NCBI RefSeq assembly: GCF_003337735.1
Contig: NZ_QPJY01000002.1
Span: forward strand, 745,617-809,616
Source: Thioalbus denitrificans
GTDB lineage: Bacteria > Pseudomonadota > Gammaproteobacteria > DSM-26407
Length of the DNA: 64,000 nucleotides
Direction of reading: 5' to 3'
Part shown: one piece after another, positions 9,128 to 53,888 of the stretch
Position numbering within the stretch: position 1 is the stretch's first letter
How the letters are laid out: each line of letters opens with the position of its first letter
The notes under the pieces: generated by a model
The model's input: the letters and a program-made list of their open reading frames with translations, nothing else
Told to the model about the DNA's origin: nothing
Database searches by the model: none
Program-made: the position numbers and the translations under genes

Positions 9128-9420
9128 TTCACCACGGAGGCGCGGAGTTCACGGAGGGGCTGGTTTGGGAGGCGGTCCATGCGGTGCGCGCGGCGCACCC
9201 TACGGCTGGACCGCCCGCCCCCTTCCCGGCGCGCGGCGTAGAGTGCGCCGTGCGCACCAAAGGCGCCGGCGGTATGCGCCGGCAGGATGCAGGTTATCCC
9301 CAACACCGGGTTTCGTTACGGCAGCAGGACCGGCCCCGTCGGACCAGGACAAACTTCGTGCCCTTCGTGCCTTCGTGGTGAAGGATTTTTCTGGTGTAGG
9401 ATTTTCGTGGTGAAGGATTC
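9128..9420. repeat. Inverted periodic repeat with diverged arms (CACGGAG / CACGAAG type)
   Basis: The left arm starts at the base after the upstream stop codon (9128-9158, TTCACCACGGAGGCGCGGAG onward). The right arm (about 9353-9383) reads on the other strand TTCACCACGAAGGCACGAAG onward. The arms share the TTCACCACG end but have switched from CGGAG to CGAAG units. A further degenerate right-arm fragment lies at 9384-9420. The spacer of about 195 bp contains no recognisable gene, although short open frames cross it. Confidence 0.8.
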
Positions 9421-20833: not shown

Positions 20834-21052
20834 GGTTTATCCGCAGATTACGCGGATGACGCAGATTCGCCCGCCTGGATTCGGCGAGGCCCGTTGAGAA
20901 CCCGTTACCGTGCACGCGGGAATTCTGCCCGGCCGGTAACCGCGGATTGGCGTTGATTTTCGTTGATTCGTCCGATGCGCTGGAGTCCCTCCTGCCATGA
21001 GGGGCCTCCGGACCCCTGCCCAGGGCCTGGCGTAAGTCTGCGGTTGATTCAG
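20834..21052. repeat. Periodic repeat arms: one GCAGATTAC half-element and one ACCGC..GTTGATT element
   Basis: A single arm TTTATCCGCAGATTACGCGG onward (20836-20868) has no matching right arm nearby. A second element follows, with left arm AACCGCGGATTGGCGTTGAT onward (20938-20971) and a short right arm AAGTCTGCGGTTGATT (about 21034-21049). The rest of the 20734-21096 gap contains no recognisable gene. Confidence 0.75.
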
Positions 21053-22996: not shown

Positions 22997-24163
22997 ATGA
23001 TCCAGTACCCCAGCCTCAACTTCGGTCTTGGCGAGACGGCGGACATGCTGCGTGACGCGGTGCAGTCCTTCGCCACCGAGGAGATCGCCCCGCGCGCCGC
23101 GGACATCGATCGCGCCAACGAGTTTCCCGCCGATCTCTGGCGCAAGCTCGGCGACATGGGCCTGCTGGGCGTGACCGTGGAGGAGGAGTACGGCGGCAGT
23201 GCCATGGGCTACCTGGCCCATATCGTCGCCATGGAGGAGATCAGCCGGGCCTCGGCCTCGGTGGGGCTGTCCTACGGCGCCCACTCCAACCTCTGCGTGA
23301 ACCAGATCCGCCGCAACGGCACGGACGATCAGAAAGCCCGTTACCTGCCGGGGCTGGTCACCGGCGAGCTCGTGGGCGCATTGGCCATGAGCGAGCCGGG
23401 CGCCGGATCGGACGTGGTGGGGATGCGCCTGCGGGCGGAGAGAAAGGGCGATCGCTTCGTGCTCAACGGCAACAAGATGTGGATCACCAACGGCCCCGAC
23501 GCCGACGTGCTGGTGGTCTACGCCAAGACCGACCCCGAGGCCGGGCCGCGGGGCATCACCGCGTTCCTGGTCGAAAAGGGGTTCCCGGGCTTCTCCACCG
23601 CGCAGAAGCTGGACAAGCTCGGCATGCGCGGCTCGAACACCTGCGAGCTGGTATTCGAGGATTGCGAGGTTCCGGAGGGGAACGTCCTCGGGGAGCTGAA
23701 CAAGGGCGTGCGGGTGCTCATGTCGGGACTCGACTACGAGCGGGCCGTGCTGGCGGGAGGTCCGCTCGGGATCATGCAGTCCTGCATGGACACGGTGCTG
23801 CCCTACCTGCACGAGCGGGAGCAGTTCGGCCAGGCCATCGGCACCTTCCAGCTGATGCAGGGCAAGCTCGCCGACATGTACACCACCCTGAACGCCTGCC
23901 GCGCCTACGTCTACGCCGTGGGCGCCGCCTGCGACCGCGGCGAGACCACCCGCAAGGACGCCGCCGGGGCCATCCTCTACTCCGCCGAGAAGGCCACCTG
24001 GATGGCCCTGGAGGCGATCCAGTGCCTCGGCGGCAACGGCTACATCAACGAGTATCCCACCGGCCGCCTGCTGCGGGACGCCAAGCTCTACGAGATCGGC
24101 GCCGGCACCTCCGAGATCCGCCGCATGCTCATCGGCCGCGAACTGTTCAACGAAACGGCCTGA
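22997..24163 (+). CDS. liuA: Isovaleryl-CoA dehydrogenase
   Basis: Oxidises isovaleryl-CoA to 3-methylcrotonyl-CoA, passing electrons to ETF. 388 residues. The catalytic Glu is in [15 protein letters not shown], the position typical of isovaleryl-CoA dehydrogenases, and the usual late Glu position is AGTSEIRR instead. FAD-binding segments [10 protein letters not shown] and [10 protein letters not shown] are present. First gene of the catabolic cluster, 55 bp downstream of the LiuR-type promoter. Confidence 0.95.
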
Positions 24164-24202: not shown

Positions 24203-24445
24203 TCACCACGAAGGCACGAAGGACACGAAGAAAAGAACCTGACAAACCGCAGATTGACGGTGATTTACGTTTATTGTGCCGACCTTGCCGGGAAGGCACT
24301 GCCGGAGGGGAACAACTCGCCGGCTCCAGCCGGTAACTCCGGCAAACAGCACTCGATGCCTGACCTGAAATCAACGTCAATCAACGCCAATCTGCGGTTG
24401 ATAGTTTTTAAGTCTTTCTTCGTGTCCTTCGTGCCTTCGTGGTGA
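24203..24445. repeat. Nested inverted periodic repeats between liuA and the thiolase gene
   Basis: The outer arms are perfect complements over 31 bases (24203-24233 and 24415-24445; TCACCACGAAGGCACGAAGG onward). Inside lies a second pair of another subfamily: AACCGCAGATTGACGGTGAT onward (24245-24275) and its partner ending AATCTGCGGTT (24368-24402). The right outer arm ends 28 bases before the thiolase start. Confidence 0.92.
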
Positions 24446-24473: not shown

Positions 24474-25661
24474 ATGATGCAGAACGACCCGGTGGTGATT
24501 GTCGGCTACGCCCGCACGCCCATGGGCGGCTTCCAGGGCGAGCTGGCGCCGCTGACGGCGCCCGATCTCGGGGCCGCGTCCATCCGCGCCGCGGTGGAGC
24601 GCGCGGGGATCCAGCCCGGCGCGGTGGACGAGGTGATCATGGGCTGCGTGCTGCCGGCCGGCATGGGCCAGGCGCCCGCGCGGCAGGCGAGCCTGGGCGC
24701 CGGCCTGCCGCTGGGCACCGGCTGCACCACGGTCAACAAGATGTGCGGCTCGGGGATGAAGGCGGCCATGCTGGCCCACGACCTGCTGCTCGCCGGCAGC
24801 GCCGCGGTGATGGTGGCCGGCGGCATGGAGAGCATGAGCAACGCCCCCTACCTGCTGCCCAAGGCCCGGGCCGGGCTGCGCATGGGCCACGGCGAGGTGA
24901 AGGATCACATGTTCCTCGACGGACTCGAGGACGCCTACGACAAGGGCCGGCTGATGGGCACCTTCGCCGAGGAGTGCGCCGACAAGTACGGCTTCACCCG
25001 CGAGCAGCAGGACAACTTCGCCATCACCTCCCTGAAGCGGGCCCAGCAGGCCATCGAGGACGGCAGCTTCGAGCGTGAGATCACCCCGGTGACGCTGGCC
25101 ACCCGCCAGGGCGAGGTGGTGATGGAGCGGGACGAGCAGCCCTTCAAGGCGCGCATCGAGAAGATCCCCACCCTGCGGCCGGCCTTCCGCAGGGACGGCA
25201 CGGTCACCGCCGCCAACTCCAGCTCCATCTCCGACGGCGGCGCGGCGCTGGTGCTGATGCGCCAGTCCGAGGCGGAGCGCCGCGGCCTGGCCCCGCTGGC
25301 GCGCATCCTCGGTCACGCCACCCACGCCCAGGAGCCGGCCTGGTTCACCACCGCCCCGGTGTTCGCCATGGGCAAGCTGCTCGAACGCACCGGCTGGAGC
25401 CCCGCCGAGGTGGATCTCTACGAGGTGAACGAGGCCTTCGCCGTGGTCACCATGGCCGCCATGGAGGAGCTCGCCCTCCCCCACGACAAGGTCAACGTCC
25501 ACGGCGGCGCCTGCGCCCTGGGCCACCCCATCGGCGCCAGCGGCGCCCGCATCATGGTCACCCTGCTGGCGGCCCTGGAAAAGTACGACCTGAAGCGCGG
25601 CATGGCCAGCCTCTGCATCGGCGGCGGCGAAGCCACCGCCATCGCCATCGAGCGGTTTTGA
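24474..25661 (+). CDS. Acetyl-CoA acetyltransferase-type thiolase
   Basis: Cleaves or forms acetoacetyl-CoA with acetyl-CoA. 395 residues; AGGAG precedes ATG 24474, and ATG 24477 is equally possible. The nucleophilic Cys is in NKMCGSGMKA, His in NEAFAV, and the C-terminal GGACALGHPIGASGARI contains the second Cys/His pair. In the leucine pathway it would process acetoacetyl-CoA made from acetoacetate; it could also feed PHA synthesis. No acetoacetate:CoA transferase or ligase gene is in the window. Confidence 0.92.
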   Translation: MMQNDPVVIVGYARTPMGGFQGELAPLTAPDLGAASIRAAVERAGIQPGAVDEVIMGCVLPAGMGQAPARQASLGAGLPLGTGCTTVNKMCGSGMKAAMLAHDLLLAGSAAVMVAGGMESMSNAPYLLPKARAGLRMGHGEVKDHMFLDGLEDAYDKGRLMGTFAEECADKYGFTREQQDNFAITSLKRAQQAIEDGSFEREITPVTLATRQGEVVMERDEQPFKARIEKIPTLRPAFRRDGTVTAANSSSISDGGAALVLMRQSEAERRGLAPLARILGHATHAQEPAWFTTAPVFAMGKLLERTGWSPAEVDLYEVNEAFAVVTMAAMEELALPHDKVNVHGGACALGHPIGASGARIMVTLLAALEKYDLKRGMASLCIGGGEATAIAIERF

Positions 25662-25676
25662 CCGGAGAACCCAATG

Positions 25677-25852
25677 AACCGCAGATTTGCGTGGATTGGC
25701 GTTGACTGGATTTCGAAGACCCGTGCGTTCCCGTAGCGACAACCGGGACGCCCCGTGCACTGTGTCAGGTTTTCAGTCCCTTCCGCATCGATTGCACTAC
25801 GCTCATGCGGACAGAGGACATTCACGTAAATCAACGTCAATCTGCGGTTAAT
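25677..25852. repeat. Inverted periodic repeat between thiolase and acyl-CoA dehydrogenase
   Basis: Left arm 25677-25715 (AACCGCAGATTTGCGTGGAT onward) begins 16 bases after the thiolase stop. Right arm 25821-25852 (TTCACGTAAATCAACGTCAA onward, ending CTGCGGTTAAT) ends 20 bases before the next start. The spacer has no gene. Confidence 0.88.
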
Positions 25853-27019: not shown

Positions 27020-27179
27020 TTAACCGCAGATTTGCATTATTAACACTGATTTTTCAGGGACGAAGCGATCAGCATACAGGAGGCGCCTGCTCTGGCTGCA
27101 GGCGATGCCAAGCGTTCTGCCCAGGCCATCCGGGGAATCAACGTCAATCAACGTCAATCAACGTCAATCTGCGGTTAAT
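27020..27179. repeat. Inverted periodic repeat before liuB, with three exact 10-bp units in the right arm
   Basis: Left arm 27020-27054 (TTAACCGCAGATTTGCATTA onward) starts 12 bases after the stop. The right arm 27136-27179 contains three exact AATCAACGTC units, then AATCTGCGGTTAAT, and ends 17 bases before liuB. Confidence 0.9.
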
Positions 27180-37433: not shown

Positions 37434-37470
37434 ACCGCAGATTGACGTTAATTCACGTTAATCTGCGGTC
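37434..37470. repeat. Compact hairpin form of the ACCGCAGATTGACG repeat
   Basis: ACCGCAGATTGACGTTAA and TTCACGTTAATCTGCGGT are adjacent, so this element has essentially no spacer and would fold as one hairpin. It lies between the thioesterase pseudogene and the convergent DUF1127 gene. Confidence 0.88.
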
Positions 37471-38801: not shown

Positions 38802-38978
38802 TTAACCGCAGATTGACGTCGATTGACGTGGATTATTCCCGGACCTGATGGTTCGATCCGGGCATCTGATCGCCACTTGAAAACTGGATCCCTCGCTCTC
38901 TCCGTTCACGGCAGCGATATGAGAAGGCTTCAGATTTGGTTCAACAATCAACGCAAATCAACGTCAATCTGCGGTTAA
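38802..38978. repeat. Inverted ACCGCAGATTGACG-type periodic repeat between two convergent genes
   Basis: Left arm 38802-38838 (TTAACCGCAGATTGACGTCG onward) and right arm 38945-38978 (CAATCAACGCAAATCAACGT onward). They lie 11 and 15 bases from the flanking stop codons. Confidence 0.9.
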
Positions 38979-44241: not shown

Positions 44242-44466
44242 GACAGGATTTACAGGATTAACTGGATTAACTGGATTTCCGAGAGTGTCAGGTTTTAAAT
44301 TTCACGTTCTTTCGAAGAACTCAGGCTTTACCCAAAGATATTCGAAGCCGGTCCTCGCCCATTCCGATGCCGGGACGGGGGTCCATCCGGCCACCCAGAC
44401 CTTATGGCCTGCCACATAAAGTCTCGCGCACAACATCATGTTAATACTGTAAATCCTGTCTATTCA
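44242..44466. repeat. Inverted GACAGGATT-type periodic repeat
   Basis: The left arm 44242-44277 has four 9-bp units (ACAGGATTT, ACAGGATTA, then CTGGATTAA variants). The right arm 44439-44466 ends AATCCTGTCTATTC. It fills the gap between the sulfur-globule terminator and the convergent CoA-transferase gene. No gene is seen in the spacer. Confidence 0.88.
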
Positions 44467-48966: not shown

Positions 48967-49002
48967 AATAGACAGGATTCACAGGATTGACGGGATTTAT
49001 CC
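48967..49002. repeat. Single left arm of the GACAGGATT-type repeat
   Basis: AATAGACAGGATTCACAGGA onward, three units, beginning 17 bases after the cydC stop. The nearest matching inverted arm (AATCCTGTCTATT, 49934-49946) is on the far side of the lysE gene, so the pair brackets that gene. Confidence 0.85.
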
Positions 49003-49710: not shown

Positions 49711-49946
49711 TATCCGCAGATTGCGCGGCAGATGAAGACGATTCTCGTGCGGATTGGGAGAGCCTGACTTGAAAGCAGGACCGGGTTCCCGGCAATGCGA
49801 CTCAGTGGCGCCGTTCCTCGCACGCCTCTTCGCTCCGCAGTGACAGCAATTGGCATGGGCCTGTCCGCGGGCAGGGACAATCTGCGCGATCGGCGTAATC
49901 TGCGGATAACAGGTCCTGTCCTTTCATCCTGAAAATCCTGTCTATT
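49711..49946. repeat. GCAGATTAC-type inverted repeat followed by a GACAGGATT-type right arm
   Basis: Left arm 49711-49737 (TATCCGCAGATTGCGCGGCA onward) and right arm 49878-49909 (ending AATCTGCGGATAA) form a degenerate pair. Directly after comes a right arm of the other subfamily (CATCCTGAAAATCCTGTCTA region, 49926-49946) whose partner is at 48967. The gap 49642-49959 has no gene. Confidence 0.82.
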
Positions 49947-53587: not shown

Positions 53588-53888
53588 TCCCGCGCCCCGT
53601 CGAACCCGGGAGACGACTGTCCCACCCGGGGCGCACGCCGCCCGGGCGCCGGCGCGCAACGACACCGCGACCACACCGCGCGGCCTGGCCCCGGCTGCCC
53701 TCTCCTTCTTGTTCTGTGCGCCTTGGCGCCTTGGCGTTGAATCATCGGATTGCGCTGAAAGTCCGGCTCCGCTGCCCCGGCAGGAGATGGGCACGTCTTG
53801 ATTCTGGTAGCTGCTTCCGCCGCCGTCAAAGCCGCGCGGCGGATGATCGGTTATCATCGTTTCCCTCCGATTCTTGACCACCGGCTCC
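53588..53888. other. Intergenic region with a lone CCTTGGCG repeat arm
   Basis: An arm 53705-53741 contains CGCCTTGGCGCCTTGGCG, related to the imperfect block at 33-65 but with no visible partner here. No gene is recognised. The divergent promoters of sdhC and the ABC exporter must lie in this interval. Confidence 0.55.

Follow-up and report, generated by a model that had tools for sequence, protein, structure and literature searches.

Word-armed palindromes of Thioalbus denitrificans and their relation to GxxExxY genes, which encode predicted nucleases

REPIN/RAYT systems are among the closest described counterparts of the sequence analysed here: short inverted-repeat units occupy intergenic gaps, and several types coexist in a genome, each near its own enzyme gene (PMC3116915, in part). 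A double palindrome of Thioalbus denitrificans and its relatives share with these systems intergenic inverted units of several types per genome, each tied to a nearby enzyme gene and carrying no cargo (PMC3116915, in part). However, the enzyme here is a predicted PD-(D/E)XK nuclease whereas that of REPIN/RAYT is a Y1 tyrosine transposase, and the arms here are iterated 7-mers that are identical in many phyla whereas REPIN/RAYT uses tagged REP hairpins. In PD-(D/E)XK homing endonucleases such as I-Ssp6803I, a small nuclease is likewise encoded within a DNA unit that it possibly spreads (PMC3943268, in part), but the units described here have inverted, iterated arms at each end, and many copies are gene-less. 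MITEs of DDE insertion sequences are also gene-less units with terminal inverted repeats, and such repeats are common to the gene-less elements here and to a gene-bearing copy at 721.7 kb of contig C1; unlike in MITEs, no target-site duplication was found and the enzyme encoded by the matching gene does not belong to the DDE transposases. The genes in question are members of the GxxExxY family (TIGR04256/PF13366), whose models as listed give neither a function nor flanking repeats. A literature search found nothing linking GxxExxY or PF13366 to repeats, and a passage naming GxxExxY was incidental.

With a probability of about 0.6, the focal sequence is read here as a non-autonomous palindromic mobile element, of which the autonomous form in each word family carries a GxxExxY gene, the cognate nuclease mobilising the palindromes. 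What the analysis shows is the arms, copies with unrelated flanks, presence and absence at an orthologous site, the gene within matching arms, covariation of protein and arm, and clustering around the cognate gene.

The focal double palindrome and its repeat families

The window, i.e., the whole stretch of 64,000 nucleotides that was analysed, contains the focal element, which occupies most of the space separating an acyl-CoA dehydrogenase gene from a thiolase gene. Its features are as follows.

22997-24163, plus strand: acyl-CoA dehydrogenase gene, upstream context
24203-24233, plus strand: outer left arm, with CACGAAG three times; its exact reverse complement is 24415-24445
24234-24244, no strand: left linker from outer to inner arm, differing among elements
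24245-24275, plus strand: inner left arm, CGCAGAT/GTTGATT-type words, an arm type also found un-nested elsewhere
24276-24368, no strand: centre, differing among elements, with GC-rich hairpins; homologous centres occur only in some copies
24369-24399, minus strand: inner right arm, pairing with 24245-24275
24415-24445, minus strand: outer right arm, three CACGAAG words
24474-25661, plus strand: thiolase gene, downstream context

The initial annotation described outer arms that match over all 31 bases and enclose an inner pair. Direct reading confirmed both: the outer left arm, TCACCACGAAGGCACGAAGGACACGAAGAAA, pairs with the right arm at 31 of 31 positions (40 nt at 93% when extended into the flanks), and the inner arms, also compared over 31 nt, show 87% complementarity, which is perfect in the initial 12. 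Within the window, CACGAAGGNCACGAAG occurs five times with up to two mismatches (0.10 expected) and ACCGCAGATTGACG 14 times with up to three mismatches (6.6 expected).

In the home genome (4.14 Mb, 21 contigs), 149 matches were found with a 291-nt query, 172 with the outer word pair, 91 with the inner word and 319 with a third word, ACAGGATT; reversed-pattern controls gave 0, 2 and 0 matches for the outer, inner and third words, respectively. The nesting and clustering counts are based on 100 of the 172 outer-pair places and 100 of the 319 third-word places. Among these listed matches, in the 85 stretches analysed, a CACGAAG pair surrounds a CGCAGAT pair in 42 cases and an ACAGGAT pair in two, with no case of the reverse nesting of either kind, and 17 CACGAAG pairs and 29 CGCAGAT pairs are un-nested. 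The double palindrome is therefore a repeat species and a chance palindrome is ruled out. Relatives with only the outer or only the inner element, which had been proposed as a check, are thus both present among the matches listed. That nesting arose by entry of one element into another is supported by the occurrence of both families alone and nested in a fixed order, but entry at the focal locus is not required, because the nested pair is now copied as a single unit (see below) and this locus need not be the original site. Another type of nesting consists of a CGCCAAG element and a GxxExxY remnant within CGCAGAT arms. Outside genes, 56 inverted outer pairs were found, the focal pair lying between two genes.

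Perfect arms had also been taken to imply recent origin or gene conversion, which is mostly not borne out. Over the outer 29 nt of 42 composite elements, the two arms of one element have an identity of 0.934, and arms of different elements one of 0.919. The expected excess within elements is thus small and real (1 of 5000 permutations as high), but the outer arms are near-invariant genome-wide, so that a perfect arm pair needs no special correction and arm perfection is mostly a matter of word constraint. An element's own partner arm is its best match in only 16 of the 42 composites, the 56 nt next to the outer arms are 0.690 identical within and 0.657 between elements, and the linkers of composite elements match within an element no better than by chance. 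A hairpin maintained by full-length pairing was rejected, as the linkers mismatch within elements. In addition, the outer arms do not match perfectly over 31 nt in every genome, since in one of the same genus (G001) the left arm of the focal orthologue has one extra 9-nt unit. The focal element occupies the same site in G001 (flanks 96.3% identical) and is thus not very recent. A local event, in which one element recently entered another at the focal site and the arms are under correction, would draw on the occurrence of both elements alone and on the weak within-element excess of arm identity; it is quite unlikely, as the composite is widespread and moves as a unit and the focal copy is common to the same-genus genome.

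GxxExxY genes between matching arms

At 721.7 kb of contig C1, an outer-type pair spanning 561 nt, its two arms identical at 29 of 29 positions, encloses a GxxExxY gene (TIGR04256, 145.6 bits with a cut-off of 35; PF13366, 143.5 bits). PF13366 has five matches in the home genome (three genes and two truncated), all five inside inverted arms, the words being CACGAAG, ACAGGAT, CGCAGAT, CGCCAAG, and CGCCAAG nested in CGCAGAT. The paired palindromic repeats in intergenic gaps, together with seven Y1_Tnp genes in the genome, might point to REPINs mobilised by Y1 tyrosine transposases (RAYTs) or to MITEs of a DDE insertion sequence. This is very improbable, since none of the seven Y1_Tnp genes lies between arms and only one has arm words within 1.5 kb, compared with five of five for GxxExxY, and no excess of target-site duplications was found at 56 elements (k of 2 to 8, offsets of -2 to 2). 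RAYT as the partner enzyme was rejected for the same count of 0 of 7.

TIGR04256 is carried by 34 of 229 genomes in a class-wide sample and by 65 of 398 in a phylum-wide sample. Sixty GxxExxY loci from the home genome and both samples were tested, leaving out of the arm tests an orthologue (L322), a duplicate (L332), L317 and two loci with short flanks. Inverted flanking arms scored above all 200 shuffles at 47 of the 60 loci, the other 13 failing the arm test; at L316, the inverted repeat scored was one other than its CGCCAAG arms. In a rerun, 48 of 59 loci passed, compared with 0 of 52 displaced flanks and 1 of 56 upstream segments. A mismatched-pair control, in which 2 of 34 loci pass the 99% level, is inflated because arms are related between loci, and shuffles and displaced flanks were therefore used instead. 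Of 44 arms, 28 had a three-fold iteration of a 7-mer that exceeded every one of 200 shuffles, with spacings mostly of 8-10. Word arms exceeded all shuffles at three of eight loci on plasmid records (Bacteroides, Bernardetia and Gemmatirosa) and not at the other five; at all five loci on viral contigs some inverted repeat did so, with similar words at L421 and AT-rich or other types at the rest. GxxExxY genes have the orientation of both neighbours in 41 of 56 cases and oppose both in three (simple ORF caller), and they sit in sense within gene runs, e.g., atpE-atpF and fabD-fabG.

An exact CACGAAG 28-mer was found in 108 stretches with titles from at least twelve phylum-level groups, although titles of MAGs may reflect binning errors; isolates include Methylobacter tundripaludum, Geothermobacter hydrogeniphilus and Magnetospirillum sp. 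Only four of the 108 stretches have a GxxExxY gene near them (three other genomes and the orthologue). CACGAAG arms enclose the gene in two MAGs, one of Methylobacter and one alphaproteobacterial, and stand next to it in a third, which is labelled Nitrosovibrio. In the class-wide sample, the triple CACGAAG word is present in four of 229 genomes, all of which are among the 34 TIGR04256 carriers.

GxxExxY, of 123 residues, is a predicted nuclease of the PD-(D/E)XK fold, as judged from its conserved residues and its AlphaFold2 model (pLDDT 95.1 with eight sequences; 50.7 with three). Across the 60 loci, E26, E76 and Y94 are conserved in 60, K78 and Q90 in 59, and D66 in 58; these residues form the presumed catalytic set, in which D66, E76 and K78 correspond to the D ... 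ExK motif. The closest solved fold relative of the model is SSO0001, a Cas4 protein (Z 9.8, rmsd 4.4, 100 aligned), and archaeal Hjc is among tied rows at Z of about 7 (Z 7.0, rmsd 3.4, 86 aligned); the top-ranking structures are PD-(D/E)XK enzymes. Foldseek against the PDB gave no match at E <= 0.001, the sequence search found no solved structures, PADLOC gave only weak Cas4 matches, and in PHROGs L226 had no match and L424 had weak matches.

Protein identity correlates with arm similarity (Mantel r 0.556 over 49 loci, 0 of 5000 permutations as high), and the same holds in the gammaproteobacterial subset (r 0.507, 28 loci) and the phylum-wide subset (r 0.758, 21 loci; each 0 of 5000). For 21 of the 49 loci, the word agrees with that of the locus encoding the closest protein, with 4.6 expected. 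Common descent of proteins and arms could be part of the source of this covariation, which constitutes a natural data set on change of DNA specificity in a nuclease of about 120 residues.

Elements also cluster by word. Among the matches listed, the 100 kb on either side of the CACGAAG gene contain 12 outer-armed elements (3.4 expected) and no inner-only elements; around the CGCAGAT gene, the same distance takes in four outer-armed and 12 inner-only elements (1.6 expected). The association gives a Fisher value of 6.6e-5 for these listed matches when elements are treated as independent, an assumption that local copying breaks; the inner-only set consisted of 34 elements marked by hand. ACAGGAT elements, again among the matches listed, number 13 near the ACAGGAT gene (2.9 expected) and one near the CACGAAG gene, and 12 are also within 100 kb of the CGCAGAT gene, the two gene regions overlapping because the genes are 23 kb apart.

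Copying, exchange and the mobility reading

Eight pairs of elements have arms, linkers and centre in common and unrelated flanks, both orientations occurring; in four of the eight, the members are 3-5 kb apart. For comparison with G001, 21 of 56 loci were usable, and these are biased towards presence because they were chosen for matching the element: centres are the same at 14, inverted at two, replaced at three, reduced to 57 nt at one and unclear at one. Exchange between arms thus happens, as the two inverted and three replaced centres among the 21 comparable loci demonstrate. At one replaced locus, the arms enclosed by the outer pair are of the CGCAGAT type in one of the two genomes and of the ACAGGAT type in the other. 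No empty orthologous site was found for the focal element, one close relative carrying the element; site L202 was rejected as an empty site because the home genome also has a copy there. In the atpE-atpF gap of methanotrophs, CACGAAG arms enclose the gene in three Methylobacter genomes (at L224 and L378, and as a broken copy at L379). In other methanotroph genomes, this gap is occupied by CGCAGAT palindromes, by arms of the CACGAAA type or by a remnant, or it is bare and about 20 nt long, as in another Methylobacter genome. At L379 (G617), the GxxExxY gene is broken by another inverted-repeat insert.

These results can be accommodated as follows. The outer ends are inverted arms of three 7-nt CACGAAG words with a CGCAGAT palindrome inside, and the whole travels as a unit. 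In each word family, the autonomous form would be a single GxxExxY gene between the same arms. The cognate nuclease would most probably bind the iterated words at both ends and cut there, possibly on a hairpin or cruciform, after which repair or replication would copy the unit into a new gap or swap the interior between arm-bearing sites. By a logic like that of REPIN/RAYT applied to an unrelated enzyme, GxxExxY may mobilise the palindromes; we infer that it does so by binding and cutting their arms, which would drive copying.

A possible but doubtful alternative is that GxxExxY is a homing-type passenger which settled in pre-existing palindromes, arm cuts leading to repair that copies the gene or interior, with short palindromes having spread otherwise. 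This would suit the centres replaced or inverted between retained flanks at the comparable loci, as well as the target duplications sought and not found, and compact homing enzymes with the PD-(D/E)XK fold have been described as a class (PMC3943268, in part). However, entire units with arms stand at unrelated flanks, elements are concentrated around the cognate gene, and homing confined to pre-existing arms would create no new arm-bearing sites.

Several observations count against the mobilisation reading. Neither the 13 of 60 loci that fail the arm test nor the scarcity of the gene near the 28-mer stretches favours it, and the same applies to the lack of target-site duplication at the 56 elements. 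To our knowledge, no lone PD-(D/E)XK nuclease transposes DNA. Elements also change slowly relative to flanking genes, which is not predicted for a selfish element: in 14 same-centre elements, including the focal one, 70 substitutions occur in 4237 positions, compared with 375 in 10364 in the flanks (mostly coding), the rate being lower in 13 of 14 loci. Such conservation, as well as a very stable single-strand fold of the focal element (z = -12.2 as DNA and -12.6 as RNA; 0 of 200 shuffles as stable), might suggest a structural RNA or DNA signal under selection, such as a terminator, mRNA stabiliser or nucleoid site. This explanation has very little probability, because the gene context of elements is near random (24 tandem, 16 convergent and 16 divergent by a simple ORF caller), centres differ or invert between relatives, and Rfam gave no match anywhere in the window.

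In a broader form, for which the odds appear even, GxxExxY genes would define an undescribed superfamily of bacterial mobile elements in many phyla, in which a lone small PD-(D/E)XK nuclease recognises three-word arms by a word-protein code that co-evolves, and the gene-less palindromes, nested composites included, would depend on these enzymes. Under the mobile-element reading, a widespread family to which the libraries used assign no function would have one that can be tested, and an origin is proposed for the intergenic repeats of CTTCGTG, ATCTGCG, AATCCTG, CTTGGCG and CTCTGTG type words in many bacteria. If the proposed movement is true, it would represent a new class of bacterial mobile DNA and a new kind of enzyme, working without target duplication.

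Other palindromic sequences

Further palindromes of the same word families lie in the window.

9354-9382, minus strand: lone CACGAAG arm (remnant)
25677-25849, no strand: un-nested CGCAGAT-type palindrome, gap after the thiolase gene, same gene run as the focal element
27022-27176, no strand: un-nested CGCAGAT-type palindrome, further gap in the same gene run
37434-37469, no strand: minimal CGCAGAT-type palindrome of about 36 nt
38804-38976, no strand: un-nested CGCAGAT-type palindrome
44242-44460, no strand: ACAGGAT-type palindrome (third word family)

The abundance of inner-type palindromes fits the start of the window about 11 kb from the CGCAGAT gene. ACAGGAT-type arm words in opposite orientations, about 950 nt apart, are present at 48972-48997 and 49925-49941, and CGCCAAG-type words on the minus strand at 53714-53736 may be a lone arm of the fourth word family. 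Half palindromes of the CGCAGAT type cluster at 20840-21045, where G001 differs in sequence. Outside the window, at about 732.5-732.8 kb of contig C1 (L113, 2472-2830), lies a palindromic element of another kind, whose ends resemble CTAGTGTACTG...TCACTCTTGGAGG and which probably belongs to a separate MITE-like family; the corresponding gap is much shorter in the same-genus genome.
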